Part shown: positions 41,291 to 56,351 of the stretch, piece after piece
Layout of the letters: each line of letters starts with the position of its first letter
Numbering within the stretch: the stretch's first letter is position 1
NCBI GenBank assembly: GCA_013298215.1
Contig: JAAFKE010000022.1
Coordinates: 1-56,376 of the forward strand
Source of the DNA: Cytophagales bacterium
GTDB lineage: Bacteria > Bacteroidota > Bacteroidia > Cytophagales > Spirosomataceae
Length of the DNA: 56,376 nucleotides
Reading direction: 5' to 3'
Translations under genes and position numbers: made by a program
The notes under the pieces: generated by a model
Told to the model about the DNA's origin: nothing
Databases searched by the model: none
The model's input: the letters and a program-made list of their open reading frames with translations, nothing else

Positions 41291-44200
41291 CCAAATTGGC
41301 GCACTCATCGTAACAATTGGTGCGCTTATGGGCAGTTGCAAGACGGACAATAAACCCGTTTTTAAGCTCTTAAAGGGCGCATCGACGGGGATAAGGTTTG
41401 AAAACAAGCTCGCCGAAACCAAGGATATTAACATTTTAGACTACCTGTATTTCTACAACGGAGGCGGCTTGGCGGCGGGCGATGTGAACAACGATGGCCT
41501 GACGGACTTATATTTTGTGTCCACGCAGGGCGACAATAAACTGTACCTAAACAAGGGGAAAGAAAAAGAGAACCCGTTTACTTTTGAAGATGTGACCGCG
41601 CCAGCGGGCGTGAAAGGCAGTGCCAACTGGCAAACGGGGGTGACGATGGTGGACATAAACGCCGACGGGAAACTGGATATTTATGTGTGTGCGGTGGGTA
41701 AATACAAATCGTTGAAAGGCAAAAACGAATTGTATATTAACCTCGGAAACGACGCGAAGGGCGTACCCAAATTTGCCGAAAAAGCCGCCCAGTATGGCCT
41801 GGATTTTAGCGGATTTTCGACCCAAACCGCTTTTTTTGACTACGACAAAGACGGCGATCTGGACGCGTATTTGCTCACCCACGCCACCCACAGCGTGAGT
41901 TCTTACGACAAAGTGTCGGCGCGGGCACTGACCGACTCGACGGCGGGCGATGTGCTTTACAGAAACGACAACGGCAAGTTTGTGGACGTGAGCCAGCAAG
42001 CGGGCGTTTACCAAGCACCGATGGGCTACGGTTTGGGTATTTCGGTGGCCGATTTCAACAACGACGGCTGGGACGATATTTACGTGTCGAACGACTTTCA
42101 CGAGGATGATTATTACTACCTCAACAACCAGAAGGGTGGCTTCGATGAGGCCATGAAAAAAAGTTTCAAACACCTCAGCAAGTACTCGATGGGCTGCGAT
42201 GCCGCCGACATAAACAACGACGGGTGGGTGGATATTTTTACGGCAGATATGCAACCCAACGACGAAAAGATCGAAAAAGCGTCGCTTGGTGAGGACGCGC
42301 TCGATGTGTATATGTACAAACTCCAACTGGGTTTTTATTACCAATACAGCCGAAACGCGCTCCATCTCAATATGCAAGGCCAACGGTTTGCGGAGGTGGG
42401 TACGCTGGCGGGGGTGTCGGCCACGGACTGGAGCTGGTCGCCGCTGATGGCTGATTTTGACAACGACGGTCAGCGCGACCTGTTTGTGTCGAACGGGATT
42501 CCTAAACGCCCCAACGATTTGGACTACATCAAATACATTAACAGTGATTCGCTGCTCAATATGCTGTCGGGAAGCCCGCTCTACAGTACCAAAAGCAAAG
42601 ACAAGTCAGCCTTGGAACTGATGCCAAACGGGCAAATGCACAACTATATCTTTAAAGGCAACGCAAAATACCAGTACGAAGACCAGTCGAAGGCGTGGGG
42701 TTTCGACCAGCCGACGGTATCGAACGGAGCCGTGTATGCCGACTTAGACAACGACGGCGACTTGGAAATTATAACCAACGACCTGAACCAACCCGCTGGT
42801 TTTTACCAAAATATGACCCAAGAAAACACGCCAACAACGGGCGCGTTTGTGCGGTTAAAATTGCTGGGCGATGGCAACAACACCGCAGGAATTGGCGCAA
42901 AAGTGATCTTGAAACACAAAGCCAAGATGCAGGTGGCTACCCAGCAACCAACGCGGGGTTTTGAGTCGTCGTCGGAGCCAATTATACATTTTGGTATGGC
43001 AACCGACGAAACGATCGACAGTTTGATCGTGATCTGGCCGAACCAAAAAATGCAAGTTTTGACCAACGTAAAGCCAAACCAAACGCTGGCGCTCGCCCAA
43101 AAAAATGCCCTTACGAGTGCGATTGCCTACACCTACGCACCAGTGCCGAAGGCTGTTTTTAATGAAACGGTGGACGCGGTTTCGGCAACGCACCAAGAGA
43201 ACCCATACTACGAACAGAGCCGCGAGTCTTTGATGCCATTCAAGGTATCGACGGAGGGCGCGCGAACGGCGGTGGGCGATGTGAACGGCGACGGGCGGCA
43301 AGATTTTTACTTGGGTGGTGCGCGCGACAAGCCAGGGCAGCTATTGGTACAACAAGCCAACGGTAAGTTTGTGGCCAGCAAGCAAATAGCCTTTGAAAAA
43401 GACTCGGTGTATGAAGACGTGGATGCCGCTTTTTTTGATGCCGACCGCGACGGAGACCCAGATTTGTACGTGGTTACGGGCGGTAACGAGTTTTTTGGGA
43501 CGATGCCCGAGCTGAACGACCGCCTGTATATGAACGACGGCAAGGGGAACTTTGCCCGCGCCAGCGCCAACTTACCCGCCATGACCGACAACAAAAGCTG
43601 CGTGGCAACGGCCGATTTTGACCAGGACGGCGACATCGACGTTTTTGTGGGGGGGCGCGTAGTGGGATATAAATACGGCGAAACCCCAAAATCGTACCTC
43701 TTAATAAACAACGGCAAGGGACGTTTTGAGGACAAAACCGAACAAATTGCGCCCCAATTGCGGCACGTGGGCATGACCACCGCCGCCGTTTGGGCCGATA
43801 CTGACAACGACAAAGACCCCGATTTGGTGGTGGTAGGAGACTGGATGCCGATTGTTGTTTTTGAAAACCAAGGCGGCAAAACCCTCACAAGCAACCGCCA
43901 AGGCAAGGAACTCGAACAAAAAAGTGGCTTCTGGCACGCAATAGAGGCCGCCGACTTTGACAACGACGGCGACATTGACTTTATGGTTGGGAACCTGGGG
44001 CTCAACAACCGACTGATAAAGCAGGCCGCACCCGCCCTCAAAATGTACGTGAAAGATTTCGATGGCAACGGATCGACGGAGCAAGTTTTGGCCTACCTCC
44101 GCGACGACAGTTGGTATCCGCTCAACAGCAAAGACGAGCTTGGCAAGCAAATGCCTGGCATTATCAACAAACGATTTACGACCTACGGCGATTTTGCGGG

Positions 44201-44654
44201 CAAAACCCTAACGCAGGTATTCAAGGCCGATGAGCTACGGGGAAGTACCGAAAAAATGGTGAACACCTTCGAGTCGGTGTACGTAGAAAATCGGGGAAAG
44301 GACGGATTTGTGGTGTCGGCACTGCCGCGCGAGGTGCAGTTTTCCAAAATATTTGCGCTATCGGCGGGCGATTTCGACGGAGACGGTAAGTTAGATGCCG
44401 TTTGCGGTGGTAATTTTTACGGGGTAAGCACCTACCAAGGCCGCTACGATGCCAGTTTTGGGTGGTTTTTGAAGGGCAACGGCAAAGGACAGTTTGCGGC
44501 GGTGTGGCCAACCAACTGCGGCCTGATGCTGGATGGCGAACTGCGGGATTTGAAAAAAATAAACGTGGGTAGAAATCCCTCTATTTTAGGAATTTTTAAC
44601 AACCAAAAACCGCAGATTTATCGTTATCTTGGCAAGAAAAACGTACTCTTATGA
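41256..44654 (+). CDS. FG-GAP/VCBS-repeat protein with ASPIC-UnbV domain (second paralog)
   Basis: A 1132-residue paralog of the preceding protein. The start codon lies inside the previous gene (overlap 35 bp); an in-frame ATG at 41262 is also possible. The signal peptide ends with the lipobox ALMGSC. Calcium-loop repeats include DVNNDGLTDLY, DINADGKLDIY and DFNNDGWDDIY. The ASPIC-UnbV part (AGIGAKVILKHKAK, QPTRGFESSSEP, IDSLIVIWPN) is near 540-615. Shared segments such as YYQYSRN, LHLN and ATDWSW show that this and its neighbours arose by duplication. A 4-bp ATGA overlap leads into the next gene. Confidence 0.92.
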   Translation: MLMLKYFHSKNSQIGALIVTIGALMGSCKTDNKPVFKLLKGASTGIRFENKLAETKDINILDYLYFYNGGGLAAGDVNNDGLTDLYFVSTQGDNKLYLNKGKEKENPFTFEDVTAPAGVKGSANWQTGVTMVDINADGKLDIYVCAVGKYKSLKGKNELYINLGNDAKGVPKFAEKAAQYGLDFSGFSTQTAFFDYDKDGDLDAYLLTHATHSVSSYDKVSARALTDSTAGDVLYRNDNGKFVDVSQQAGVYQAPMGYGLGISVADFNNDGWDDIYVSNDFHEDDYYYLNNQKGGFDEAMKKSFKHLSKYSMGCDAADINNDGWVDIFTADMQPNDEKIEKASLGEDALDVYMYKLQLGFYYQYSRNALHLNMQGQRFAEVGTLAGVSATDWSWSPLMADFDNDGQRDLFVSNGIPKRPNDLDYIKYINSDSLLNMLSGSPLYSTKSKDKSALELMPNGQMHNYIFKGNAKYQYEDQSKAWGFDQPTVSNGAVYADLDNDGDLEIITNDLNQPAGFYQNMTQENTPTTGAFVRLKLLGDGNNTAGIGAKVILKHKAKMQVATQQPTRGFESSSEPIIHFGMATDETIDSLIVIWPNQKMQVLTNVKPNQTLALAQKNALTSAIAYTYAPVPKAVFNETVDAVSATHQENPYYEQSRESLMPFKVSTEGARTAVGDVNGDGRQDFYLGGARDKPGQLLVQQANGKFVASKQIAFEKDSVYEDVDAAFFDADRDGDPDLYVVTGGNEFFGTMPELNDRLYMNDGKGNFARASANLPAMTDNKSCVATADFDQDGDIDVFVGGRVVGYKYGETPKSYLLINNGKGRFEDKTEQIAPQLRHVGMTTAAVWADTDNDKDPDLVVVGDWMPIVVFENQGGKTLTSNRQGKELEQKSGFWHAIEAADFDNDGDIDFMVGNLGLNNRLIKQAAPALKMYVKDFDGNGSTEQVLAYLRDDSWYPLNSKDELGKQMPGIINKRFTTYGDFAGKTLTQVFKADELRGSTEKMVNTFESVYVENRGKDGFVVSALPREVQFSKIFALSAGDFDGDGKLDAVCGGNFYGVSTYQGRYDASFGWFLKGNGKGQFAAVWPTNCGLMLDGELRDLKKINVGRNPSILGIFNNQKPQIYRYLGKKNVLL

Positions 44655-45352
44655 AAAAAAACGCGCTTTTGATACTCGCTATTATAGTCGTTTCGGTGCT
44701 TAATCTCCGCGCTCAGGGAAGTGTGTTGCCCTTTGCGTCGTCGCAGCTGGTGGACGGAATCGGGGCCGTTAATTCCCAGGCTAACTCAACCCTTTTTGCC
44801 AAAAAATACAACACCATCTACGACAATACCCCCTACCTACCCGCCCAAAATATGGTAGCGGGATATTTTGTGCAGGCCAACGGGAAACGTTTTGAAATTG
44901 AGAAAATGGCCTACAACGCCTACGAAAAACGGGTAGAGTACGCGGTAAAAAACGATCTCTTTTTTCCAAAAGAACAAATCATTGAGTTCGGATTTGTGTC
45001 GGGAGAGGTTTTTCAACGAAATTTTAAGCCGATGGACGACCACGACGAGGCGACGTATTTTCAGGTGATTTACAACGCCAAAACCCGCCTGCTCCTCCAC
45101 ACGCGAGCGGCGCTGTTGGAGGTGGCAGCCTACAGTTCGGCAGACAAAATGAAGCACTTCGACGCTACCGATACGTACTACGTACTAAAAAGCGACGGCA
45201 CTTTTTCAAAGTCACGCCGGTTGAATGGCGAGCTTTTGGATGTTTTGGGCGATAAAAAAACACTGATTGATGCCTTCATAGACACCAACAAATTGAAGTG
45301 CAAGTCTGCCAGCGATCTAAAAAAAGTACTGGCCTATTACGACTCACTATGA
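44651..45352 (+). CDS. exported protein of unknown function within the FG-GAP operon
   Basis: A 233-residue protein I do not recognise. It has a clear Sec signal peptide (about 1-22, ending LNLRAQG) and no lipobox Cys. The body is rich in Tyr, Asn and Lys, with FEIEKMAYNAYEKRVEYAV and LLLHTRAALLEVAAYSS as the most regular stretches and a helical C-terminus (SDLKKVLAYYD). It overlaps the FG-GAP genes on both sides by 4 bp, so all four are probably translated in a coupled way. A small periplasmic or surface partner for the propeller proteins is a reasonable guess. Confidence 0.75.
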   Translation: MKKNALLILAIIVVSVLNLRAQGSVLPFASSQLVDGIGAVNSQANSTLFAKKYNTIYDNTPYLPAQNMVAGYFVQANGKRFEIEKMAYNAYEKRVEYAVKNDLFFPKEQIIEFGFVSGEVFQRNFKPMDDHDEATYFQVIYNAKTRLLLHTRAALLEVAAYSSADKMKHFDATDTYYVLKSDGTFSKSRRLNGELLDVLGDKKTLIDAFIDTNKLKCKSASDLKKVLAYYDSL

Positions 45353-48300
45353 CAGGAAAAAGGTTAGTTTACGGGTGGTGGGTGGTGGGTATGCTCCTCG
45401 GTGGGTGTTCGTCGCCCACGCTTTTTAGGGCTGTCGATGCGGCCGAAACATCCGTAAACTTTACCAACGTACTCACCGAGTCGGAGACCCAGAATGTACT
45501 TGCCTACGAGTATTTTTACAACGGAGGCGGGGTGGCCGTAGCCGATTTTGACAACGATGGCCGCACCGATGTGTATTTTACGGGAAACCAGGTGGCAAAT
45601 AAACTGTACCTAAACCAGGGCGATTGGAAATTTGAGGACGCAACCCAGCGGGCGGGCGTGGCGGGCCGAGCCACCAGTTGGAAAACTGGCGTGACCGTGG
45701 CCGACGTGAACGCCGACGGCTGGCTGGACATCTACGTGTGCTACTCGGGAAACGGCTCGCCCGAAAGTCGCAGAAACCAGTTGTTTGTTAGCCAGGGACT
45801 TACGCCCGAAAAAAAGTTAGTGTTCACCGAGCAAGCCCAAGCCTACGGACTGGCCGACGAGGGGTACTCGACCCAAGCAACCTTTTTTGACTACGACCAC
45901 GACGGAGATTTAGACCTGTTTCTGATTAACCACAACCTAAAAAACTACCAACGCAAAGAAGCAGCAGCCATGAAAACCGCCGTTGATGCGTTCGCGGGCG
46001 ATAAACTTTACCGAAACGATGGCACGCATTTTACGGACGTGACCACCGCAGCGGGTATTATCAGCAATCCGCTGGGGTTTGGGCTGGGCGTTTCGGTGGC
46101 TGATTTCAACGGCGACAACTGGCCCGATATTTACGTGGCCAACGACTACGTGGAGCAAGATTATTTGTACTACAACAACCGCAACGGGACGTTTAGTGAG
46201 GTAGGAAAAGACGTAATCGGGCATTTTTCGTACTCGGCCATGGGAACCGACGCCGCCGATGTGAACAACGATGCCGTTCCTGATATTTTTAGTTGCGATA
46301 TGCTCCCCGCCGACAATGCGCGTCAGAAAAAACTGGCCTTCCCCGACAATTGGAACGTACAGCAGTCGATGCTTCAAAACGGTTTTCATTGGCAAAATAT
46401 GCGAAATATGTTGCAGCTCAACACCAACAAAGGGCGTAGCTTTAGCGAGATTGGCCAGCTGGCGGGGGTCTCTAACACCGATTGGAGTTGGGCACCGCTC
46501 CTGGCCGACTTTGACAACGACGGCTTTAAAGACCTATTCGTTTCCAACGGTTTTGTGCGCGATCTCACCGATTTAGATTTTGTAAAATACCAACTCGGCC
46601 AACAAGAACAAAGTACCAGCAAAACCACCCAAACCCTGCTGGCACAAACCAAACAGATGCCCGCCACGGCCACGCACCACTACATTTTTAGAAACAAAGG
46701 CGATCTTACCTTTGAAGACAAAGTGGCCGACTGGGGATTTGAGCGACAGACGGTGGCCTGCGGGGCGGCCTCCGCCGACCTCGACGGCGACGGCGACCTG
46801 GACTTGATTACCAACAACACCAACCAAACCGCCTGCCTTTACCGAAACTACCAGCAAGAAAGCGCCCCCCAGCAATATTTGGCAGTGAAACTTACTGGCG
46901 AACCCAAAAACCCGTTTGGAGTGGGTGCTAAGGTCTTTGTTTATGCCGCACAAGGTGTTCAATACCAGGAGCTTATGCCCACAAGGGGGTTTCAGGCTTG
47001 CGCCCACGTGCCGCTGCACTTTGGGATGGGGCAGGTCAAAAAAATAGACTCGGTGGTGGTGGTATGGCCCAACGAAAGGGTATCGAGGCATTATTTAGTA
47101 CCGACCAACGTGCCGCTGGTGGCTCAGTATCAACAAGCAACCGCTGCACAAAGTGCCGCAATAGTCGCAGAAAAAACTTTTTTTTCGCCCACCACTGTCC
47201 CCGACTTTACCCACGTCGAAAACCCCACGATCGACTTCAATCGGCAAATACTGCTACCAGTGATGTACTCGCGCACGGGTGCGCGAATGGCCATTGGCGA
47301 TGCCAACGGCGACCAACTAACCGATTTTTACGCGGGCGGTGCACAGGGGCAAGCAGGGGTTTTGTACGTGCAAAAGCCCGACGGATCGTTCGTTGAAACG
47401 GCACAGCCCGCCTTCGAGATCGATAAAATATACGAGGATACGGATGCCGTTTTTTTTGATGCCGACGGCGATGCGGACGCAGATTTGTACGTGGTGAGTG
47501 GCGGCTACGAATGTGCCTGGGACGACGAGTTGCTGCAAGACCGATTGTATCTGAACGACGGCAAAGGAACGTTTGCGCGCGCCAGCTATCAAGCAAAAAA
47601 TACCAACAATAGCTGCGTGAAAACTTTTGATGCCGACGGCGATGGCGACTTAGACCTTTTTGTGGGCGGCGCTGTGCAACCTGCCCGCTACCCGATAGCC
47701 GACGACAGCCAGCTGCTAATTAACGACGGAAAAGGACACTTTGAAACCCAGGCACTGGCACTGGGCTTGGTAGCCGATGCCGCCCTGGCCGACCTCAACC
47801 GCGACGGACGGCCCGACTTGGTGCTGGTGGGCGAGTGGAGCGAGCCGCGATGGATTGAAAACCAGCCCGCAGGATTATTCAAAAACAAAATAGCACACCC
47901 AATGGGTGCGGGCGCAAGCTGGTGGACGAGACTGGTGGCCAACGACTTAGACAACGACGGCGACCTCGATTTTGTGGTAGGAAACCTCGGACAAAATAAC
48001 CAATTGAAGGCTTCTACGGACGAGCCAGTTACGCTCCAATACGCCGACTTTGACCAGAATGGTACGATCGACCCCTTCATTTGTTCCTTCAATTTGGGCA
48101 GATCGTACCCAATTGCCAGCCGCGACGAGGCATTGGAACAGGTCGTTGGTCTGCGCAAAAAGTTTGTTGATTATAGCTCTTACGCCACGGCCACCCTCGA
48201 AGATTTGTTTGCTGACGACGCGCTCAAAAAAGCCACCAAACTAACCATAACCGAGAACCGAAGCGGCCTTTTGATTAACAACGGAGGCAAGTTTACGTTT

Positions 48301-48615
48301 GAACCGCTGCCAGCACAGGCGCAGTTTGCGCCCATTTATGCCATTGAAGTAGCCGACGTGAACAAAGACGGAAAGAAAGACCTGATTCTGGCGGGAAACA
48401 ACGCAAATTTTAGGATTAGAATTGGCAAAATGGATGCCAACCCTGGTACGGTTGTGCTGGGCAACGGAAAAAACAGGTTTGAGTACGTGGCCGCCGCAAA
48501 GACGGGGCTGCAACTCGGCGGAGACACCAAAGACATGAAACGCATAACCACCAAACGAGGGCAGACTCTGCTGTTTTTTACCAACAACGACAAACTTAAA
48601 GGCTACGTTTTTTAA
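45349..48615 (+). CDS. FG-GAP/VCBS-repeat protein with ASPIC-UnbV domain (third paralog)
   Basis: A 1088-residue paralog. The ATG at 45349 overlaps the preceding stop by 4 bp and gives a canonical lipoprotein signal ending MLLGGC (Cys19); the longer open frame from 45298 is therefore rejected. Repeats such as DFDNDGRTDVY, DVNADGWLDIY and DYDHDGDLDLF lie in the first half. ASPIC-UnbV features (FGVGAKVFVYAAQG, MPTRGFQACAHV, DSVVVVWPN) are near 525-600, and a second repeat block follows. The gene ends 7 bp from the convergent dehydrogenase-cytochrome gene. Confidence 0.92.
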   Translation: MTGKRLVYGWWVVGMLLGGCSSPTLFRAVDAAETSVNFTNVLTESETQNVLAYEYFYNGGGVAVADFDNDGRTDVYFTGNQVANKLYLNQGDWKFEDATQRAGVAGRATSWKTGVTVADVNADGWLDIYVCYSGNGSPESRRNQLFVSQGLTPEKKLVFTEQAQAYGLADEGYSTQATFFDYDHDGDLDLFLINHNLKNYQRKEAAAMKTAVDAFAGDKLYRNDGTHFTDVTTAAGIISNPLGFGLGVSVADFNGDNWPDIYVANDYVEQDYLYYNNRNGTFSEVGKDVIGHFSYSAMGTDAADVNNDAVPDIFSCDMLPADNARQKKLAFPDNWNVQQSMLQNGFHWQNMRNMLQLNTNKGRSFSEIGQLAGVSNTDWSWAPLLADFDNDGFKDLFVSNGFVRDLTDLDFVKYQLGQQEQSTSKTTQTLLAQTKQMPATATHHYIFRNKGDLTFEDKVADWGFERQTVACGAASADLDGDGDLDLITNNTNQTACLYRNYQQESAPQQYLAVKLTGEPKNPFGVGAKVFVYAAQGVQYQELMPTRGFQACAHVPLHFGMGQVKKIDSVVVVWPNERVSRHYLVPTNVPLVAQYQQATAAQSAAIVAEKTFFSPTTVPDFTHVENPTIDFNRQILLPVMYSRTGARMAIGDANGDQLTDFYAGGAQGQAGVLYVQKPDGSFVETAQPAFEIDKIYEDTDAVFFDADGDADADLYVVSGGYECAWDDELLQDRLYLNDGKGTFARASYQAKNTNNSCVKTFDADGDGDLDLFVGGAVQPARYPIADDSQLLINDGKGHFETQALALGLVADAALADLNRDGRPDLVLVGEWSEPRWIENQPAGLFKNKIAHPMGAGASWWTRLVANDLDNDGDLDFVVGNLGQNNQLKASTDEPVTLQYADFDQNGTIDPFICSFNLGRSYPIASRDEALEQVVGLRKKFVDYSSYATATLEDLFADDALKKATKLTITENRSGLLINNGGKFTFEPLPAQAQFAPIYAIEVADVNKDGKKDLILAGNNANFRIRIGKMDANPGTVVLGNGKNRFEYVAAAKTGLQLGGDTKDMKRITTKRGQTLLFFTNNDKLKGYVF

Positions 48616-48622
48616 AGAACAA

Positions 48623-50581
48623 CTACTTTTGTTGCTTGTCGCCCTGATCCGACAGGTTTACCAGTGAGTTTATCCAAGCCGCTATTTTGAGCGCATCAGC
48701 ACGCGGTACTTGGGGCATCGGTGCCATTTCGGTGGCGTATTCTGGCCAGTTTTGGGGCTGGGGTTTGTAGATCAACTCCACGATTTTTTCGTTGCTATAT
48801 TTACGTTTGGCCACTTCGGCGTAGGCGGGGCCAACCTGCCGCTTGTTGGTTTGGTGGCAAGCCAGGCAAGTATGTTTTGCCAAAAGCGGCTGCACTTCCG
48901 CAAATGTTGGGGCGGTTTTGGTGTTCTTGGGTTTCAGCGCAGGCTTTGCGGCGGCGGCTTTTTCTTTGGCTACGGCGGTCTTTTTGGTACTCAACTCGCT
49001 CATGGCAAGCGCATTACCGTCGGGAATGTTGTTCAACGTGTAGTAGGCGGTATTGTGCAAAAGCCCCAGCTGAGGGTCGTCTTGGCTGCGGATGCCGTCC
49101 AGTTTTAATTCGTGAATATAATACTGGCGCAGGTTGTCCAACACAACGCGCACCCGCAGGCCATCCTCCGACACCCGAACACCTTTTATTGGCACTTCTT
49201 GGCTGTTGATGGTCGGGCTGCCATAAACGGGGTGGTACTTATAAATAAACGACTTTGTGCTGTACGAGGCCAAATCCTCGGCGTTTTTTCTGGCCACGGG
49301 CATCGTAAATTCTATCTCAAAACCATCGGGCATGGCCTTCACGGTTTTCATTTCAAAGGGCATTTTGCCCGTCCAAAAAATCCGCTCCAGTCCTTCGCCT
49401 TTTGTTCCTGCCGAGCCCCAACCCCGGTTGGTTTCGCCCGCAAAAAGCGACCCGTCGTTGCCAAAAGCCATCCGAAGTACGCCCGACTGAAACCCACCCC
49501 GAAAATCGAAGGCCGCTCCCTGAAACTCGCCCTTTACTTTTTCCATGCACACGCGCATGATTTTACTCTGGCCTTGGTCGCCCACAAAAAGCTGGCCAGC
49601 AAAAGGCCCGAAGGCTCCCTTGGTTTCATCTCTAATAATCTCGGCGTTAGAAATACCCAAGATGCCGTGTGGCAGCCATACGGCGGGCGTTTTTATTTCG
49701 GGAAACCGCTCTTTGAGTTTAAAAAAGGGCATTCCTGGGTCTTTTTCGATGTTTTCGGGTTTAATGTACGGCCCGCCAGGTTTCGACATTCGGGGGTCGG
49801 CAGCGGCATAGAGTTGTTCGGTGGTTAGTTTTATTGGTGAGTTGGGGAGCGTATTTGCCCAGCGCAAACCCGCAGGATGCCCCGTAAATGCGCCCTTCGT
49901 CACGTGCCAAACCCCGCCCGAACCCATCCAGTCGCCCTGGTTATCGGTATAAAAAAGGTCGCCATCTACCATGCCCAGGCCGCACGGCGAGCGCATCCCA
50001 GTGGCCCAGGGCTCAATTTTTCCAGTTGGATCAATCTTCATTACCCACCCACGGTACGGCACGCGGCTTTCGCCGCGCCACCACTCTTGTTCGCCGAAGG
50101 CCACGTTGCCACTCACAAAAAAACTACCGTCGGGGGCAACCTTCGGCCCAAACGAGTACTCGTGGTAGTGCGACGAAATAGGCCAGGCCGCAATGGTTTC
50201 GTAGCGGTCGGCGCGTCCATCGCCGTCGCGGTCGGTCAGTTTAGTGAGCTCGCCGCGCTGCGCCATAATCAAGGAGCCATCTTTATAAACCAGGCCGAGG
50301 ATTTCGTGGAGGCCACTCGCAAATTTTTTAAAATAAGGCGCTGTATTGTTTTGCTGCGCGGCGTTAGACACCAACCAAACCTCGCCCCGGCGCGTAGCCA
50401 GCGCAAGCCGCCCGTCGGGCAGGGTGGTCATGCCGCCCACTTCGAGCAGCACCCCCTCTGGCACGGGCAACGTAACCATTTTGTAGTATTTGTCTTCGTT
50501 GGTAGGAGCCGGCGGCATATTTTGGGCGAAAACAAGGGGCGAACACGCCACAAAAGAAATCAGAAAGAGTAGTTTTTTCAT
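48623..50581 (-). CDS. sorbosone/PQQ-type sugar dehydrogenase-like protein with cytochrome c domain
   Basis: A 652-residue exported protein. The signal peptide runs to about residue 19 (SPLVFAQ). Residues about 30-400 look like the beta-propeller of glucose/sorbosone dehydrogenases (GGMTTLPDGRLALATRRGEVW, KVAPDGSFFVSGN, FVGDQGQSKIMRV, FGNDGSLFAGETNRGWG). A calcium-loop-like DRDGDGRADRYE lies near 118-129. A linker rich in Ala and Lys precedes a mono-haem cytochrome c domain: haem motif CLACH (572-576) and a Met ligand in the EMAPMPQ segment. It probably oxidises a sugar-like compound and passes electrons on in the periplasm. It converges on the FG-GAP operon. Confidence 0.85.
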   Translation of the reverse strand: MKKLLFLISFVACSPLVFAQNMPPAPTNEDKYYKMVTLPVPEGVLLEVGGMTTLPDGRLALATRRGEVWLVSNAAQQNNTAPYFKKFASGLHEILGLVYKDGSLIMAQRGELTKLTDRDGDGRADRYETIAAWPISSHYHEYSFGPKVAPDGSFFVSGNVAFGEQEWWRGESRVPYRGWVMKIDPTGKIEPWATGMRSPCGLGMVDGDLFYTDNQGDWMGSGGVWHVTKGAFTGHPAGLRWANTLPNSPIKLTTEQLYAAADPRMSKPGGPYIKPENIEKDPGMPFFKLKERFPEIKTPAVWLPHGILGISNAEIIRDETKGAFGPFAGQLFVGDQGQSKIMRVCMEKVKGEFQGAAFDFRGGFQSGVLRMAFGNDGSLFAGETNRGWGSAGTKGEGLERIFWTGKMPFEMKTVKAMPDGFEIEFTMPVARKNAEDLASYSTKSFIYKYHPVYGSPTINSQEVPIKGVRVSEDGLRVRVVLDNLRQYYIHELKLDGIRSQDDPQLGLLHNTAYYTLNNIPDGNALAMSELSTKKTAVAKEKAAAAKPALKPKNTKTAPTFAEVQPLLAKHTCLACHQTNKRQVGPAYAEVAKRKYSNEKIVELIYKPQPQNWPEYATEMAPMPQVPRADALKIAAWINSLVNLSDQGDKQQK

Positions 50582-50614
50582 CGGTTGAACGTTTCTGAGA
50601 TTAACGAGTCCAAT

Positions 50615-51232
50615 TTAGCTAATTTTCTGATCCGACCGCACCATTGCCTGCTTAAAATCTTCCCACGTGTCAATGTCCGAAAGTATTTCGAGGCGTTGGT
50701 AGCTTATTTTCTTTGTTTCAAATTCCGCAACGGTCTGCGCAAAAAGATCAGGCTCGCTCCAAGGTTTGTTTTCAAATACGAAATCCAACCGCTCGGCCAT
50801 GCCAATCAGGTAGTAGCCCCCGTCCTGGGCTGGCCCAATCACAACCGACGAACCGTTGAGTGCCTCAAACGCATCTTGAATGTGTAACTCATTTATTTCC
50901 AGGCAGTCGCTGCCGACGATAACCACTTTTTTTGCCCCCAGGGCAAACTGTTCCCCAAAAGCATTTTTCATACGCTGACCCAAGTCATTGCCTTTTTGGA
51001 GAAATTTTTGGTAAACGCCCCCCTCCCACAAATCGGTTTCGTTGATAAAGTCGCCGTAATAAACGTTCAGCCGCACGGCTGGGTGCAACGGCTGGGTGAT
51101 GCGTTGGGTGTATGCCAACAAATATTGGTACACCTCCACCGCTTTGGCGTGGCCAACGCTCGCCGCTACGCGCGTTTTGACCTGGCCAGCTATTGGATTT
51201 TTGACAAATATGATGAGCGAAGAATCAGACAT
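50615..51232 (-). CDS. TIGR04282-type glycosyltransferase (DUF2064)
   Basis: A 205-residue GT-A-like transferase. It starts with LIIFVKNPIAGQVKTRVA (the NTP-binding signature) and has VVIVGSDCLEI near 105-115 and IGPAQDGGYYLIGM near 132-145. This family is called rSAM/selenodomain-associated transferase 1 or, in arsenosugar pathways, the ArsS-linked glycosyltransferase. No arsenic or radical-SAM gene lies nearby, so its role here is open. It starts 106 bp from the divergent acyltransferase gene. Confidence 0.8.
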   Translation of the reverse strand: MSDSSLIIFVKNPIAGQVKTRVAASVGHAKAVEVYQYLLAYTQRITQPLHPAVRLNVYYGDFINETDLWEGGVYQKFLQKGNDLGQRMKNAFGEQFALGAKKVVIVGSDCLEINELHIQDAFEALNGSSVVIGPAQDGGYYLIGMAERLDFVFENKPWSEPDLFAQTVAEFETKKISYQRLEILSDIDTWEDFKQAMVRSDQKIS

Positions 51233-51338
51233 CCGATTAATTGTAGGTTAGGGTTTCGGTTTCTGGACATAATTACGGAATTTTGAGCTAAAACGATTAC
51301 AAATCCAAAAACTTCGTCCTACCTTGTTTTATTCCTTC

Positions 51339-52229
51339 ATGCGTTTTTGGTGCCGATTGGCGTTGCTTTTCTTTGTTCGGCGGCGGTTCGTCGACGGCCT
51401 GAGCCACCTGCCCGCCAAGGGCCCCGTGCTGCTGGCAGCCAACCACCCCAATTCGTTTTTCGATGCCGTGGTCATTGGGGCCTACCTGCGCCGGCCCATT
51501 CACACCCTCACCCGCGCCGATGTTTTCAGAAAACCACTGGCAGCATTGTTTCTGCGGGGCATTAACCTGATCCCCGTTTTTAGGGTGTCGGAGGGGGGGC
51601 GGGCCAATCTGAGCAACAACGACCAGACTTTCGAGGAGTGCCAGGCCATTTTCAGAAACAACGGAGTGGTGGTTATTTTTGCGGAAGGAATATGCCTAAA
51701 CCAAACCCAGCTGCTGCCCCTCAAAAAAGGCGCGGCGCGTATTGCCCAACGCGCCTGGGCCGACCCCGAAATTGGTGATAAACTAATCGTCATTCCCACT
51801 GGTTTGTGGTACAATTCTTTTCGGGATGCTCCCAAAGACGTGGCCCTGCGCTTGGCAAAGCCCATTTTAAAGCAAGATTTCGGCGAGTTCGACGAGCGAA
51901 TGATGCGGGTCTTTAACGACCAACTAACCACCGAATTGAGCAAACTCGTTGAGCCGCCAGCTGGTTATAAAACCCGCAAAACCACAAAGAAACTGTGGAT
52001 GCAAACAATGGCGGGCGGGTATTTCTACAAAATTTGCCGCCAATACGCCCAAAAACTAACCGCCCGTACTGTTTTCTACGACTCCGTTTTGTTTGGCATA
52101 CTCCTTTTTTTGTACCCGATCTACGTACTTTTAGCGAGTACTTTGGCTGGGTTGGGGCTGGGTTGGGTTGGATTTTTTGTAGCCTTCGGGGGCGTTGTGG
52201 CGGCGGGCTACTGGGCGGCTAAATCCTAA
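51339..52229 (+). CDS. 1-acylglycerol-3-phosphate acyltransferase-like protein
   Basis: A 296-residue PlsC-family acyltransferase, expected to acylate a lysophospholipid-type acceptor at the inner membrane. The acyl-binding motif reads AANHPNSFFDAV (near 35-46), with five residues between His and Asp instead of the textbook four. A GINLIPVFR block and a FAEGICLNQ block (the EGT/EGx motif) follow. One or two membrane segments occupy the C-terminus (SVLFGILLFLYPIYVLLAST and after). A TTG at 51324 could extend it by 5 residues; the ATG is preferred. Its 3' end overlaps a small minus-strand frame by 4 bp. Confidence 0.85.
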   Translation: MRFWCRLALLFFVRRRFVDGLSHLPAKGPVLLAANHPNSFFDAVVIGAYLRRPIHTLTRADVFRKPLAALFLRGINLIPVFRVSEGGRANLSNNDQTFEECQAIFRNNGVVVIFAEGICLNQTQLLPLKKGAARIAQRAWADPEIGDKLIVIPTGLWYNSFRDAPKDVALRLAKPILKQDFGEFDERMMRVFNDQLTTELSKLVEPPAGYKTRKTTKKLWMQTMAGGYFYKICRQYAQKLTARTVFYDSVLFGILLFLYPIYVLLASTLAGLGLGWVGFFVAFGGVVAAGYWAAKS

Positions 52230-52321
52230 AGCCATGGTTTATTTTGTTGCTGAGTGTTCCGCAATTTGCCTGAACTACTACCGCCCATGCCTGTTTTGAT
52301 TTTTGCTTTGGTGTTGGCCAT
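52226..52321 (-). CDS. 31-residue small protein in repeat half A (copy 1)
   Basis: An ATG-started frame of 31 codons, MANTKAKIKTGMGG at its start, then SSSGKLRN and a polar tail. It begins 15 bp after the stop of the ATPase gene on the same strand. A second copy of its first 18 residues exists at 54338-54394 with mostly synonymous changes (aca/acg, ggc/ggt twice), but there the ATG has become AGG. This pattern suggests selection on the peptide, or a recent origin from a coding sequence. No function is known. Confidence 0.45.
   Translation of the reverse strand: MANTKAKIKTGMGGSSSGKLRNTQQQNKPWL
52265..52320. repeat. repeat half A, copy 1
   Basis: About 55 bp that match 54338-54392 with roughly eight mismatches; the core GTTTTGATTTTTGCTTTGG is identical. 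It lies directly downstream of the ATPase gene, whereas half B lies upstream of the same gene. In the other copy, A and B are only about 45 bp apart. Confidence 0.75.
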
Positions 52322-52336
52322 GACCGAACAACGTGT

Positions 52337-53518
52337 TTATGATTTTACTAAATTTAATGCTTGTAAATATTTGTGCAATTCTGCTAAGTTACACACGCGC
52401 CATTGTGGTTTCAATAAATAATCACCGCCGTCGGTCGTAACTAAGAAGTTGTGGGTAGTCTTTAAATCTTGTATGGCTTCGGTGGAGCCTTTGCCCAGCG
52501 ACTGAATCGTCGAGAGTTTTATTTCTATCGAAACCACTGGCTCAATGCCCTTTACCAATACCAAATCTATTTCTGCTCCATTGGCGGTTCTGTAAAAATA
52601 CGGCATTACGGCATCGTTGAGACTGTTGCAAATTTGTTCTATCACGTAGCCTTCCCACGAGTTGCCCACTGCGGGGTGCGCAATGAGCGTATCGTAGGTG
52701 TTGAGGTCTAACAAATAATGCAAGTTGCCCGAATCTCTCACATAAATTTTGGAACTTTTGACCAACCGCTTCGGAATATTGACGTGCCAGGGCTGCAAAG
52801 TACGCACAAGGTAGGCTTGCTCTAAGAGGTTGATGTAGCTTTTTATTTTGCGCTGGTCTATTTGTAACGACTTGGCCAAATCTGATATATTCAACAAAGA
52901 CCCCTGCAAATTGGCCAACATTTTGAATATACGGTACAACGTTTGTGGACTTTCGCCGATACCCAATTGCACCAAATCTCGCTCGGCATACGACTGAATA
53001 AAGTTTCGTTGCCAAGCCCACCAAAGAGCATCGGTAGGGGCCAAAATGGCCGAAGGATAACCGCCTCTTAGCCAATGTTGTTGTGGCAAAATAGCCTCTT
53101 TTGTCAATTCGCTGAGGCCAAAGGGTTGCAATACCTCAAAGGCAATACGCCCTGCTAACGTTTCTTGACTTTTGGCCAAAAACGCTGGCGAAGCCGACCC
53201 CAACAATATGAATCGCCCTGCTTTACGATTAGAATCTATCAGCGAGCGAAGCATCGGAAACAGCCCCAACATCCATTGCACCTCGTCAATAATTACGGTT
53301 TTGGCCGTGTATTGGCTCAAAAACCATTCAGGGTCTTGGCTTATCCGCTCGTAGGTGCTTGGCAGTTCCAAATCGAAATAAACGCTTTCGTTGGGCAGCT
53401 CTTCTGCCAATGCCTTCACCAAGGTAGTTTTACCTACCTGCCTCGGCCCCACCACCCCCACCACAGGAAAATAAGACAACAACTCTTCGATATTCCCTTT
53501 TTGCTTACGTTCTATCAC
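52337..53518 (-). CDS. AAA ATPase with DUF4143 domain
   Basis: A 393-residue protein of the AAA_14/DUF4143 family. Near the N-terminus, Walker A is GPRQVGKTT and Walker B is VIIDEVQWM. LLGSASPAFLAKSQETLAGR follows as the sensor region. The C-terminal DUF4143 domain has a nuclease-fold-like pattern (NGAEIDLVLVKG, then SIEIKLS). The GTG at 53518 is chosen since homologues start near IERK; a TTG at 53527 gives 3 more residues but lies inside a hairpin arm. Codon use is more AT-rich than in the left part of the window. Such ATPases are widely scattered and often horizontally moved; their function is poorly known. The gene sits between the two halves of a duplicated repeat. Confidence 0.88.
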   Translation of the reverse strand: MIERKQKGNIEELLSYFPVVGVVGPRQVGKTTLVKALAEELPNESVYFDLELPSTYERISQDPEWFLSQYTAKTVIIDEVQWMLGLFPMLRSLIDSNRKAGRFILLGSASPAFLAKSQETLAGRIAFEVLQPFGLSELTKEAILPQQHWLRGGYPSAILAPTDALWWAWQRNFIQSYAERDLVQLGIGESPQTLYRIFKMLANLQGSLLNISDLAKSLQIDQRKIKSYINLLEQAYLVRTLQPWHVNIPKRLVKSSKIYVRDSGNLHYLLDLNTYDTLIAHPAVGNSWEGYVIEQICNSLNDAVMPYFYRTANGAEIDLVLVKGIEPVVSIEIKLSTIQSLGKGSTEAIQDLKTTHNFLVTTDGGDYLLKPQWRVCNLAELHKYLQALNLVKS

Positions 53519-53521
53519 ATT

Positions 53522-53562
53522 ATTCAAGTAATTTTTACAAATTTAGTTAAAATTACTTGAAT
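53522..53562 (-). promoter_or_regulatory. 14-bp inverted repeat enclosing the -7 element of the ATPase gene
   Basis: ATTCAAGTAATTTT (53522-53535) and AAAATTACTTGAAT (53549-53562) are perfect inverted repeats with a 13-base centre. The centre contains TAAATTTG on the minus strand (53545-53538), a match to TAnnTTTG. One arm also covers the alternative TTG start. The layout is that of a repressor operator placed on a promoter, perhaps for autoregulation. No clear -33 TTTG is present. Confidence 0.6.
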
Positions 53563-53601
53563 GCTTGGCGAATGACTATTTAAAAAGGTAGTCTTGGTCT
53601 A

Positions 53602-53660
53602 AAAAGCGTTTGGAAACGCAAAACCTTTGGGCAACCGATTCGGAAATCGGTGCCAGCGGA
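53602..53660. repeat. repeat half B, copy 1
   Basis: About 59 bp matching 54437-54495 with only a handful of differences. It contains the small palindrome GCGTTTGGAAACGC and a stem ACCGAT/ATCGGT around TCGGAA. On the minus strand it reads PLAPISESVAQRFCVSKRF within an open frame that ends at 53576 and lacks a start codon. Three of four codon differences from copy 2 are synonymous in this frame, while the plus frame would change residues each time. Confidence 0.75.
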
Positions 53661-53688
53661 GTATTGGCTTTTTTGGCTACAAGCTATC

Positions 53689-53722
53689 TTGCTTTCAGTT
53701 AGAAAAAATTGATTTATATTTG
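53689..53722 (+). promoter_or_regulatory. promoter candidate for the toxin-antitoxin pair
   Basis: TTG (53689-53691), a 23-base spacer, and TATATTTG (53715-53722) fit the Bacteroidota consensus at its longer spacing. The -7 element ends 16 bp before the antitoxin ATG, giving a very short leader. Confidence 0.5.
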
Positions 53723-53738
53723 TTAAAAAAACAGTGAT

Positions 53739-53969
53739 ATGACAACTACGTACCAATTTTCTATTGAAGAACTATCAGTAGATTTCGTTCGAAAACTCAA
53801 AAAATTTCACCAAAACGGGACTGTTACACTTTTGGTTGATACTGTTGATGAAACCGAATTTTTGCTCCAAAACCCTAAAAATAGAGAGGTTTTACTGAAA
53901 TCGATTGCCCAAGCTGAGAGGGGAAATTTGGTTACAGTCAATTTTGAAAACCCTGCTCAAAAGCTATGA
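53739..53969 (+). CDS. antitoxin partner of YoeB
   Basis: A 76-residue protein directly upstream of, and overlapping by 4 bp (ATGA), a YoeB-type toxin. It starts MTTTYQFSIEELSVDFVRKL and ends with LLKSIAQAERGNLVTVNF, the C-terminal toxin-binding pattern of many Bacteroidota antitoxins of this type. The N-terminal DNA-binding part is not a clear Phd/YefM fold, so the assignment rests mainly on gene order and size. Confidence 0.75.
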   Translation: MTTTYQFSIEELSVDFVRKLKKFHQNGTVTLLVDTVDETEFLLQNPKNREVLLKSIAQAERGNLVTVNFENPAQKL

Positions 53970-54223
53970 GAAACATTATGTTTACTCCCATAGCTTTTGA
54001 GCAGCTAAACGAGTGGGCTGAGTCTGATTTTACAACGTACCAACGCATCGTTAGGCTCATCAATGAGGTAAATCGCACTCCTTTTCATGGAATTGGTAAG
54101 CCCGAACCGCTAAAAAATGAATTAAAAGGCTACTGGTCAAGACGAATTACCCAAGAACACCGATTAGTTTATAAAGTATCCAATGAGCTACTGACAATTA
54201 TTGCCTGCAAAAACCACTATTAG
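53966..54223 (+). CDS. yoeB: YoeB-family mRNA interferase toxin
   Basis: An 85-residue toxin of the Txe/YoeB family, which cuts mRNA at the ribosome. The catalytic residues of E. coli YoeB (E46, R65, H83, Y84) all have counterparts one position later: Glu47 in GKPEPLK, Arg66 in QEHRLVYK, and His84-Tyr85 at the C-terminus in CKNHY. The KGYWSRRI segment is also typical. It should be neutralised by the overlapping upstream gene. The pair lies between the two copies of repeat half B. Confidence 0.92.
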   Translation: MRNIMFTPIAFEQLNEWAESDFTTYQRIVRLINEVNRTPFHGIGKPEPLKNELKGYWSRRITQEHRLVYKVSNELLTIIACKNHY

Positions 54224-54241
54224 ATTTTATTCAATTGATAT

Positions 54242-54394
54242 TCAATTGAATAAAAAACAGATAACTGCCACTTCATCTACCTGCTTTTCACCCTCCAAAC
54301 ACCGCCGTTTTTTGGTTTCTTTTTTATCCCAACGGCTTTTGCCTGAGTTGATACCACCCATACCCGTTTTGATTTTTGCTTTGGTGTTGGCCCT
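54242..54394 (-). pseudogene. start-less copy of the repeat-A small protein
   Basis: The minus strand reads RANTKAKIKTGMGGINSGK and continues as a charged tail (SRWDKKETKKRRCLEGEK) to a stop at 54242. It corresponds to the 31-residue frame at 52226-52321, but its ATG is replaced by AGG and the tail differs. A longer frame to 54586 exists in this phase, but its N-terminal part runs antisense-like through half B and is not convincing. Confidence 0.4.
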
Positions 54395-54495
54395 TTCAAA
54401 ATGTAGTCTTCGCTTGGAGCAAAGACTACATTTTTGAAAAGCGTTTGGAAACGCAAAATCTTTGGGCAATTGATTCGGAAATTGGTGCCAGCGGG
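54338..54495. repeat. bipartite repeat A-hairpin-B, copy 2 (compact)
   Basis: Half A (54338-54392) and half B (54437-54495) are joined by a near-perfect inverted repeat. TTTCAAAATGTAGTCTT (54394-54410) pairs with AAGACTACATTTTTGAAA (54422-54439), with one extra A and an 11-base loop. In copy 1 the same halves flank the ATPase gene instead of this hairpin. The unit could be a small non-autonomous element, or the site into which the ATPase cassette entered. Confidence 0.7.
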
Positions 54496-54509
54496 GAAAC
54501 GGATTTACC

Positions 54510-56237
54510 TCATTTTTTTGCATTTGGCAATTTGAACAACGCCTTATAGCCGATTTGAAGTTGGGTAAAATTGGCTTCTTTGGCATTGCTGTTCATTACA
54601 TGGTACGACCGCAAGAATATTTTGTCTTTGCTGTTGGCAATGGGAAAATAGAAAATCTCGGCTTCGGTACGGTAAAAAAACTCGTAGCCACCATTGGTAT
54701 AAGTAGAGAGCTTATTATTCCATATTTTTTGGCAGTAGACCATACCTGCCAAGTTAAGGCCGAAGTTGCGGTACTGAAAGACGGAGTAACGCCCCTCAAT
54801 TCCAAAGTCGAAAGTATTGCTCGTAATTCCTTGATACTGTTTTGTGCCAGTGAGTTTACTTTGAGCCTGGTCAATATCCCCCTGCCTATCAAACCAACCA
54901 AAATTGCAGAACACATTCAGCTCGGCAGTATTGTAGAAGGGTGTTACAAATGTAAAAATATTGAGTTTCAAGCCAATGTCAAGGTATTTGCGCTGATTGA
55001 CCAACATTCTGTTTATACTGATAGTATCCTTTTTCCCTATGATTGTATCGGCAATTACACTGCTAAAACCGTTTTCAAATCGGCTATATTTGAGGTAGGG
55101 CGAAATGTAGTTGAGCATAAAATTCATTTTGTGTTTGGTGGGCATGGTACGCAAGAAAATCTTGGCCGATGCCTCCGTTTGAAGCAAGGCATTACCACGG
55201 TCGGCTTTAAATAAATTGAGTGCGTCAGAGTAAACATTTAAATGAATATAAGAATTAAGCGATGTTTTGACATACATTTTTGAGACCGAATCTTTCTTAG
55301 TGAGTACTATAAGTGTATCTTTAGGTGGGTAGTTTAGTCCCGATTTTATGTCGTAGTCAAGCAAATCGAACATTCGAATAACAGATTTAGGGTTACTTTT
55401 TCCGATTAGGTAAAAGTACCGGTATCGATCATTTAGTAACTGATGTCTAAAAGAAATACCCACACGGGTGCGGCGCTTGTTAAACCGATTGTTCCACAAA
55501 TTGCTGTACACCTCATCCGTCTTACCAGAATAGGCTTTAATCTCAGCCGCAACGCCATACTTAAACAATACCTCTACTCTGCTAATACTGTCAGTTCTTA
55601 TTTTACCCTCAAATTTTTGAACTTCAGTTATATATCCTCTTTCATTATTTTTGCTGGCTTTTAGAAAACGATTAATAACGGCTAAGTTTTTTATTCTGAT
55701 TATTCCAATTTCTTCGCTGGTATCTTTGTCAGTATTGACTACATGTTTAACAATAGCCGAGATTTCAGCTTCGTATTTCTTCTGTGCTATTCCCTCATCA
55801 TTGAGGATAATCACACATTCCCCCCCTATGATTTTCGTTATTTTACCCCCTTTCACAATAGCCAATTCTAAGGTTATTGTTTCTTGCTCTTCGTTGTTAT
55901 CTTTGATAGTGAGCAGTTGAAAGCTCAAACTCTGAATCGCAGCAGTAGAGGACTGAAAAGTAAACGTGCTTGGCCCCCGCAGTTTAAAATCTTTGGTTGC
56001 GGTGGCATCGGTTTCTTTGACAGAATACTTAATCTCAATTGTTGAATCTTTGGGTATTTCGCCCATCAATCGAATGGCAATAAACGTACTATCACCTTCA
56101 TGAATTGTAATTGTATCTTCTTCAAAGCCAGCTTTTAAGCTATCGGCCACGGAAACACATACCCTGCTGGTGGGCTTTAACGCCCAGCTATTTGCGCCCC
56201 AAATAGCCATGACAAAAAGTAGAAGATTTTTTTTCAT
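54510..56237 (-). CDS. exported Calx-beta-like / outer-membrane-like protein of unknown function
   Basis: A 575-residue protein with a signal peptide (about 1-19, FVMAIWGANSWA) from the ATG at 56237; eight further codons upstream are possible. Residues about 35-145 resemble a Calx-beta domain (IHEGDSTFIAIRL, TIKDNNEEQETITLELA). The C-terminal 250 residues alternate polar and aromatic positions (YISPYLKYSRFENGFSS, NFGLNLAGMVYCQ, TQLQIGYKALFKL) and may form a beta-barrel. I do not recognise the family. Base composition is AT-rich like the ATPase and toxin-antitoxin genes, which fits recent acquisition. Confidence 0.7.
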   Translation of the reverse strand: MKKNLLLFVMAIWGANSWALKPTSRVCVSVADSLKAGFEEDTITIHEGDSTFIAIRLMGEIPKDSTIEIKYSVKETDATATKDFKLRGPSTFTFQSSTAAIQSLSFQLLTIKDNNEEQETITLELAIVKGGKITKIIGGECVIILNDEGIAQKKYEAEISAIVKHVVNTDKDTSEEIGIIRIKNLAVINRFLKASKNNERGYITEVQKFEGKIRTDSISRVEVLFKYGVAAEIKAYSGKTDEVYSNLWNNRFNKRRTRVGISFRHQLLNDRYRYFYLIGKSNPKSVIRMFDLLDYDIKSGLNYPPKDTLIVLTKKDSVSKMYVKTSLNSYIHLNVYSDALNLFKADRGNALLQTEASAKIFLRTMPTKHKMNFMLNYISPYLKYSRFENGFSSVIADTIIGKKDTISINRMLVNQRKYLDIGLKLNIFTFVTPFYNTAELNVFCNFGWFDRQGDIDQAQSKLTGTKQYQGITSNTFDFGIEGRYSVFQYRNFGLNLAGMVYCQKIWNNKLSTYTNGGYEFFYRTEAEIFYFPIANSKDKIFLRSYHVMNSNAKEANFTQLQIGYKALFKLPNAKK

Positions 56238-56272
56238 TGTTTTATGTGTTCTTAGATTCAAGTAATAAATGC

Positions 56273-56305: not shown

Positions 56306-56351
56306 CCACCTGCTGCTCTTTGGGTCTATAGACCCAAAGAGCAGCAGGTGG
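56306..56351 (-). terminator. 46-bp perfect palindrome
   Basis: CCACCTGCTGCTCTTTGGG at its left end continues through CTATAG at the centre to a mirror-image right half, 23 bp per arm with no mismatch and no spacer. On the minus strand it is followed at once by TTTCTTTTT, so it most likely terminates a leftward gene lying beyond the right edge. On the plus strand the nearest T-run is 12 bases away. Confidence 0.65.

Follow-up and report, generated by a model that had tools for sequence, protein, structure and literature searches.

The stretch of DNA analysed here, which we call the window, comprises 56,376 nt of contig JAAFKE010000022.1 in the 3.55-Mb genome of a Cytophagales bacterium of the family Spirosomataceae (assembly GCA_013298215.1). 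It contains an ATPase gene with AAA_14 and DUF4143 domains that matches the PADLOC defence candidate PDC-S01 and is situated between the two halves, A and B, of a bipartite repeat (Table 1). The gene order is acyltransferase (plus strand), A, ATPase (minus), B, a 76-amino-acid (aa) open reading frame (ORF) and a YoeB toxin (plus), a compact A-hairpin-B copy of the repeat, and a gene of 577 aa (minus). The YoeB toxin-antitoxin pair thus lies between the two repeat copies, and the left copy contains the ATPase gene. A palindrome that overlaps the start codon of this gene recurs at its relatives, where it is found with the gene, on both sides of it, or alone.

Table 1. Features in and around the bipartite repeat (window coordinates).
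Feature	Position	Strand	Description
Acyltransferase gene (PF01553)	51324-52229	+	Pfam; convergent neighbour of the ATPase gene
Half A, left (split) copy	52265-52319	+	55 nt, 87 per cent identical to 54338-54392
Putative inserted unit (ATPase gene and start-codon palindrome)	52320-53578	-	Separates A from the hairpin remnant; missing in the compact copy
ATPase, 396 aa (AAA_14 + DUF4143, PADLOC PDC-S01)	52337-53527	-	Pfam, PADLOC, conserved residues, models, fold matches
Start-codon palindrome	53522-53562		ATTCAAGTAATTTT...AAAATTACTTGAAT; overlaps the TTG start of the ATPase gene; score 14
Remnant of the left hairpin arm, split copy	53579-53595	+	TTTAAAAAGGTAGTCTT; 14/17 identical to the compact copy, in register with B
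Half B, left (split) copy	53602-53659	+	58 nt, 93 per cent identical to 54437-54494
76-aa ORF, probable antitoxin by position	53739-53969	+	Overlaps the toxin start
YoeB-family toxin gene	53966-54223	+	PF06769, 112.2 bits; TIGR02116, 101.8 bits
Half A, right (compact) copy	54338-54392	+	55 nt, 87 per cent identical to 52265-52319
Hairpin joining the halves, compact copy	54398-54434		37 nt; z -6.9
Half B, right (compact) copy	54437-54494	+	58 nt, 93 per cent identical to 53602-53659

The halves have the same order and strand in both copies. In the compact copy (54338-54494), A and B are adjacent and joined by a hairpin, as a preliminary description of this DNA had stated. It had also placed the ATPase gene between the halves of the other copy, in the same order and orientation, which holds, except that the coordinates it gave the gene are those of the A-to-B span (52265-53659) and not those of the reading frame. 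The second copies match with E values of 4e-13 (A) and 2e-18 (B) against the whole genome, and the next best places, in searches with E values of up to 10, reach 0.2 and 0.3; the pair is therefore not a product of chance. Homology between the copies extends slightly to the left of B, where the segment TTTAAAAAGGTAGTCTT aligns to the left arm of the compact hairpin. With this remnant of the hairpin beside the left B, the left copy seems once to have been an A-hairpin-B unit too.

The local repeat itself is ordinary. Its hairpin resembles dispersed hairpins of a related genome (G048), where several matches are confined to the hairpin part. One of these directly follows an apparent gene end, and we read the compact hairpin as terminator-like on the strength of that example; it is absent from the list returned by a simple terminator scan. 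To the eye, the differences between the copies look codon-like in one frame each (plus strand for A, minus strand for B), and both halves may be protein-coding debris. Each of the four differences between the B copies is a C/T exchange on the plus strand, and three of them appear, again by eye, to lie in a stem kept by G-U pairs. Folding of B compared with shuffled sequences gave z = 0.30 (no better than the shuffles) for copy 2 and, for copy 1, a value a little better than the shuffles (z = -1.82; minus strand, -2.62). At gathering scores, the RNA family search returned a piece of 16S rRNA at the window end and nothing at the repeat.

The preliminary description proposed that A and B could bound a mobile unit carrying the ATPase gene as cargo, and that the compact copy could be an empty form of it or one like a miniature inverted-repeat transposable element (MITE). 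The order and orientation of the halves agree with this proposal, but there are just two copies, both local and 2 kb apart, and on this ground we rejected A and B as ends of a dispersed MITE or insertion sequence (IS). The search of related genomes that had been proposed covered 99 of them (E up to 1) and gave, among the matches listed, short ones only and no place with both halves. A 26-nt piece of A had no exact match in a collection of species genomes, from which the organism's own and near genomes may be excluded; a 27-nt piece of B had none in viral contigs; and plasmid DNA searched with the whole region gave a single match, to the YoeB part. The outer ends of A and B share no inverted repeat of at least 16 nt; for shorter repeats and for target duplications, the sequence was inspected by eye only. 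The preliminary description had itself named ATPase relatives without A and B flanks as the result that would count against its proposal, and this is the result obtained: none of 80 named relatives (the best 80 of 223) carries A or B, the best matches being 13-17 nt long with E values of 0.35 or more, in flanking DNA that covered less than 2 kb before the gene in 10 of the 80 and less than 1 kb after it in 7. Since no other match in the genome has an E value below 0.2 and none of these relatives carries either half, we consider it very improbable that the halves bound a mobile unit. The substance of the idea, that a cassette moved, fares better: the ATPase gene looks inserted and the compact copy looks like the unoccupied form, with the start-codon palindrome, and not A and B, as the recurring marker; the comparison with a MITE lapses for want of dispersed copies.

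The segment that sets the split copy apart from the compact one (52320-53578, with borders placed to within a few bases) would be the inserted unit. The opposite course of events is that a longer A-ATPase-B unit was duplicated and its right copy lost the ATPase gene, which left A-hairpin-B. Gene loss that leaves a hairpin does occur in relatives (see below), and in Dyadobacter the ATPase gene adjoins the same acyltransferase gene, as this course would have it. However, the compact copy has a hairpin different from the ATPase palindrome, and a damaged piece of this same hairpin is retained beside B in the split copy. These two observations suggest that A-hairpin-B came first; loss in the right copy thus appears unlikely, and the event in the window was probably an insertion.

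The window palindrome is the sole copy of its kind in its own genome. Its pattern was found at three places in 222 family genomes, namely in the window and at two others, both beside an ATPase gene. A commoner palindrome pattern occupies 27 places in 23 of the 222 genomes (reversed control: 0), and genomes matching the strict pattern have 1-3 places each. To count the palindromes, we required a score of at least 12 within 110 nt upstream of a start, a threshold chosen after a first look at the data. Such a palindrome lies upstream of 52 of the 80 ATPase relatives; among dinucleotide shuffles the frequency is 3 of 400, and of the other genes in these loci 5 of 244 have one before the start. Sister species can share a site, so the loci were grouped by flanking DNA into 50 site groups; an upstream palindrome is found in 36 of these in at least one member and in 34 by the first member. 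Two distant ATPase relatives in the same genome as the window (contigs C46 and C56) also have upstream palindromes, with scores of 14 and 12.

The more alike two of the proteins are, the more alike are their palindromes: with all pairs included, a Mantel test on the window and 79 of the 80 loci gave r = 0.67 (0 of 2000 permutations). When the 36 pairs at shared sites are removed, the Spearman correlation between palindrome and protein is 0.30, compared with 0.05 for the flank. From 365 plasmid records with a relative we fetched five copies: those of Rhizobium and Agrobacterium have a similar, though imperfect, core at the start codon (scores of 9 and 8), two of Runella score 13 and 10, and that of Emticicia has no such palindrome (score of 8, other sequence). 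Mismatches between the arms show no excess of G-U over A-C (GT+TG, 6; CA+AC, 9), and we therefore treat the palindrome as a DNA feature and not as an RNA hairpin. Perfect arms are no proof of selection, as strand switching in replication can also perfect palindromes. Across the family, the PDC-S01 protein most likely recognizes the palindrome.

At some sites, matched palindromes stand on both sides of the gene. Downstream windows, first intended as a control, score at least 12 in 23 of 78 loci; most of those carry the upstream core, and some (L083, L093) hold unrelated hairpins. In 26 of the 78, the flanks on the two sides of the gene match each other, and in 19 of these both copies are palindromic. 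By site, flanks match in 10 of 48 representatives versus 1 per cent of mismatched pairs (0 of 5000 permutations reach the mean). Both copies are palindromic in 7 of the 48 representatives, that is, in 7 of the 10 with matched flanks; in two of the ten (L119 and L133), the matching segments are not clearly the start-codon palindrome.

The palindrome also occurs without the gene. We examined 23 of the 27 places with the commoner pattern, one per genome (one of the four left out, in genome G217, is locus L163): 10 have a full ATPase gene, one a broken gene, one only its tail, and 11 have none within the ~3 kb examined. Genus labels for these genomes were taken from 100 per cent matches to named loci, by protein for Dyadobacter (g32, L067) and by DNA for Runella (g31, L073) and Emticicia (g27, L112). 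A single Dyadobacter junction, between a glyoxalase-like gene and an acyltransferase gene, exists in the full, palindrome-only and empty states. Among the 48 genomes searched for it, eight have the palindrome and the ATPase gene (one broken), six the palindrome alone, and four, among those read, are empty, the anchors lying 16-31 nt apart; an unrelated hairpin stands in one genome (L278), and the remaining genomes were not read or gave no match. The junction between araB and araA in Runella, represented by ten loci, is full in one, leaves no room between the genes in three, has a perfect palindrome with the last 65 nt of the ATPase frame in two, has apparent further decayed remains in three and has a GxxExxY gene instead in one. 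At the Emticicia site, several genomes are full and G193 has the palindrome only; G192 has no palindrome and a rearranged right side, and G194 has another hairpin. Some palindrome-only sites come from gene loss, because ATPase remnants persist there. On the Agrobacterium plasmid pAt1D1460, the palindrome is kept and most of the ATPase gene is deleted, and decayed ATPase genes with a retained palindrome are found at L162, L163 and L252.

Two further observations concern gene junctions. Lone palindromes of the ATPase type, with no ATPase gene in the DNA examined, are present at L201, L202, L204/L207, L209/L211 and L212/L213, and three lone-palindrome junctions are conserved in two Runella genomes each. 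The GxxExxY gene (983-1396, TIGR04256) at the araB/araA junction of Runella G220 (L165, 930-1497) is flanked on either side by AACCACATAGACACATAGGNCACATAG, which recurs in inverted orientation before araA; here, again, repeats enclose a single gene.

Since the palindrome sits at the start codon, self-repression is suggested. A serious rival to mobility is that this is its whole function: the palindrome would be a plain operator through which the protein represses its own gene, and gene and operator together would spread by ordinary horizontal transfer and homologous recombination and disappear by ordinary deletion, with no mobility of their own. The match between palindrome and protein family, the position over the start codon, the related core in the Rhizobium and Agrobacterium plasmid copies and the decayed genes that retain their palindrome are all compatible with this explanation, to which we assign a substantial chance, short of an even one. 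By itself, however, an operator does not explain the matched second palindrome in 7 of the 48 site representatives, the palindrome-only sites or the clean placement of the gene between araB and araA. A further role for the palindrome, as the end mark of an insertable unit, is suggested by the matched second copies and by the lone palindromes.

The ATPase protein exceeds the curated cut-offs of both its Pfam domains (AAA_14, 83.8 bits with a cut-off of 27; DUF4143, 144.5 bits with a cut-off of 28.1) and matches PDC-S01 with an E value of 1.3e-87. Its closest protein among the relatives kept is from Runella limosa, and the 47 relatives that we aligned are 42-62 per cent identical to it. Across the 48 sequences, G27, G32, K33, T34, D81, E82, E297, E335 and K337 are invariant, and E319 and D321 nearly so; we take these residues to be the Walker motifs and the catalytic-type residues of a PD-(D/E)XK nuclease. 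The model of the 396-aa protein has a mean predicted local distance difference test (pLDDT) score of 92.4, and its best fold matches are 2qen (Z = 17.6, 252 residues) and 2fna (Z = 16.6, 254 residues), with a root-mean-square deviation of 3.0. The whole-model structure search covered mainly residues 1-305, of which residues 1-274 match these archaeal ATPases. From the fold match and the family description, the protein probably contains a winged-helix region. Modelled alone, the C-terminal part has a pLDDT of 89.2 and weak Foldseek matches (best E = 0.014, none below 0.001). Several of the top rows are nucleases of the PD-(D/E)XK type (Bax1, McrC, Card1, VRR_NUC, AgeI and BamHI). The DUF4143 domain may be a PD-(D/E)XK-like nuclease. 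A sequence search of solved structures gave P-loop matches only, and a viral structure library gave general AAA matches among the rows listed. The gene is a predicted defence gene with putative antiviral activity.

Taking these lines of evidence together, we lean, by a little more than an even chance, towards an explanation in which A-hairpin-B was duplicated, the ATPase gene and its palindrome were inserted into the left copy, and the family at large consists of units that are gained and lost at gene junctions and whose protein recognizes the palindrome. Specifically, a spacer of ~158 bp (A, the terminator-like hairpin and B) would have been duplicated locally, so that its copies now bracket the YoeB pair; the PDC-S01 gene would have entered the left copy between A and the hairpin, carrying its own start-codon palindrome, and the right copy would represent the unoccupied site. 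The gene and its palindrome (one per side in some lineages) would form a unit that gene junctions acquire and later lose, at times with only the palindrome left in place. The protein would recognize its own palindrome, presumably through the winged helix; the palindrome would then act as an operator over the start codon and probably also as the end where cutting or joining of the unit takes place, and the nuclease domain would be expected to drive the movement. Of all this, the repeat, the association of palindrome and gene, the matched palindromes on both sides at some sites and the three states of one junction are observed, whereas the direction of the event in the window, the winged helix with its binding of the palindrome, and movement by the nuclease are inferred. 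A stronger version, in which PDC-S01 is itself a minimal mobile element, that is, one AAA/winged-helix/nuclease gene that recognizes cognate palindromes at its start (in some lineages also at its end), enters gene junctions with no conventional transposase and has solo palindromes as its footprints, strikes us as rather doubtful.

Several observations weigh against insertion of a palindrome-bearing unit. The shared acyltransferase neighbour in Dyadobacter means that the ATPase gene could predate the repeat in the window, and all comparison genomes come from outside the genus of the window organism. The window gene has one palindrome only, with no matching flank after it, and 28 of the 80 relatives fall under the palindrome threshold. 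The window palindrome is nearest to copies from an Emticicia metagenome-assembled genome and from Arcicella, and not to that of Runella limosa, which has the closest protein; this argues against a simple history in common. In sequence, the compact hairpin bears no relation to the ATPase palindrome, and an unrelated hairpin replaces the palindrome at L278 (Dyadobacter) and L219 (Emticicia), in one genome each. Some palindrome-only sites are clear or probable deletion remnants, such as two in Runella where the final 65 nt of the ATPase frame survive, and no target duplication was seen at the window, Dyadobacter or Runella borders.

If PDC-S01 genes are units tied to palindromes of their own, part of their abundance may reflect selfish spread and not defence, and the palindrome would offer a ready handle for testing what the PDC-S01 protein recognizes. 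The window adds apparent occupied and unoccupied copies of one site side by side.

The neighbouring genes bear in part on the history of the locus. Five Dyadobacter ATPase loci have a homologue of the acyltransferase (43 per cent identical), likewise convergent, and the ATPase gene was not found near 14 acyltransferase loci of other genomes within the flanking DNA examined. The acyltransferase neighbourhood may be the original home of the ATPase gene, which the Dyadobacter loci fit and the 14 others do not. The 76-aa ORF has no match in Pfam, PADLOC or NCBIfam, and the 577-aa gene none in Pfam. As the preliminary description had remarked, no transposase or reverse transcriptase is visible: Pfam found no such family among the seven proteins of 48623-56243, two of which matched nothing. 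Upstream of the toxin-antitoxin pair, positions 53697-53730 match contig C27 (L047 2237-2270) at 33 of 34 nt, upstream of an apparent small gene, and the two segments perhaps share a promoter. A perfect palindrome with two 23-nt arms and no loop (56306-56351) lies upstream of the 577-aa gene. Elsewhere in the window, 38140-48615 holds three adjacent paralogous stretches (~60-82 per cent DNA identity in register, spaced ~3.3 and 4.0 kb), whose repeats we take to be FG-GAP-like, and the window starts, at a contig end, within the 5' end of a 16S rRNA gene that runs on the minus strand (positions 1-124).

The gene family has been described before, as a candidate defence system. PDC-S01 is called a putative defence candidate, the fourth most common defence across prokaryotes, consisting of an ATPase fused to a PD-(D/E)XK member (PMC12988326). 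An archaeal family, arCOG03166, is given as an AAA+ ATPase fused to helix-turn-helix and RecB nuclease domains that is 'likely involved in defense (or some plasmid gene)' (PMC4158269); by our own reading, the two are one family. The window ATPase has the same domains as PDC-S01, whereas the start-codon palindrome, the second palindrome and the empty, solo and full junction states go unmentioned in the accessible parts of the PDC-S01 descriptions, and we found no report of palindromes at AAA_14/DUF4143 ATPase genes in the open-access literature, as far as its accessible text extends. Empty versus occupied sites and short palindromic leftovers are also features of MITEs and insertion sequences, but here no transposase was found, no terminal inverted repeat or target duplication was seen, and A and B are not dispersed. 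Repetitive extragenic palindromic (REP) sequences with their REP-associated tyrosine transposases (RAYTs) are palindromes that flank the gene of a DNA-processing protein and also occur without that gene elsewhere. PDC-S01 genes resemble them in both respects and differ in encoding AAA_14 and DUF4143 domains in place of an HUH (Y1) transposase; moreover, genomes that match the strict palindrome pattern have 1-3 places, not many. Finally, the GxxExxY single-gene unit (TIGR04256) uses the same Runella araB/araA junction and likewise has repeats, of the CACATAG type, on both sides, whereas its protein family and its repeats differ from those of PDC-S01.

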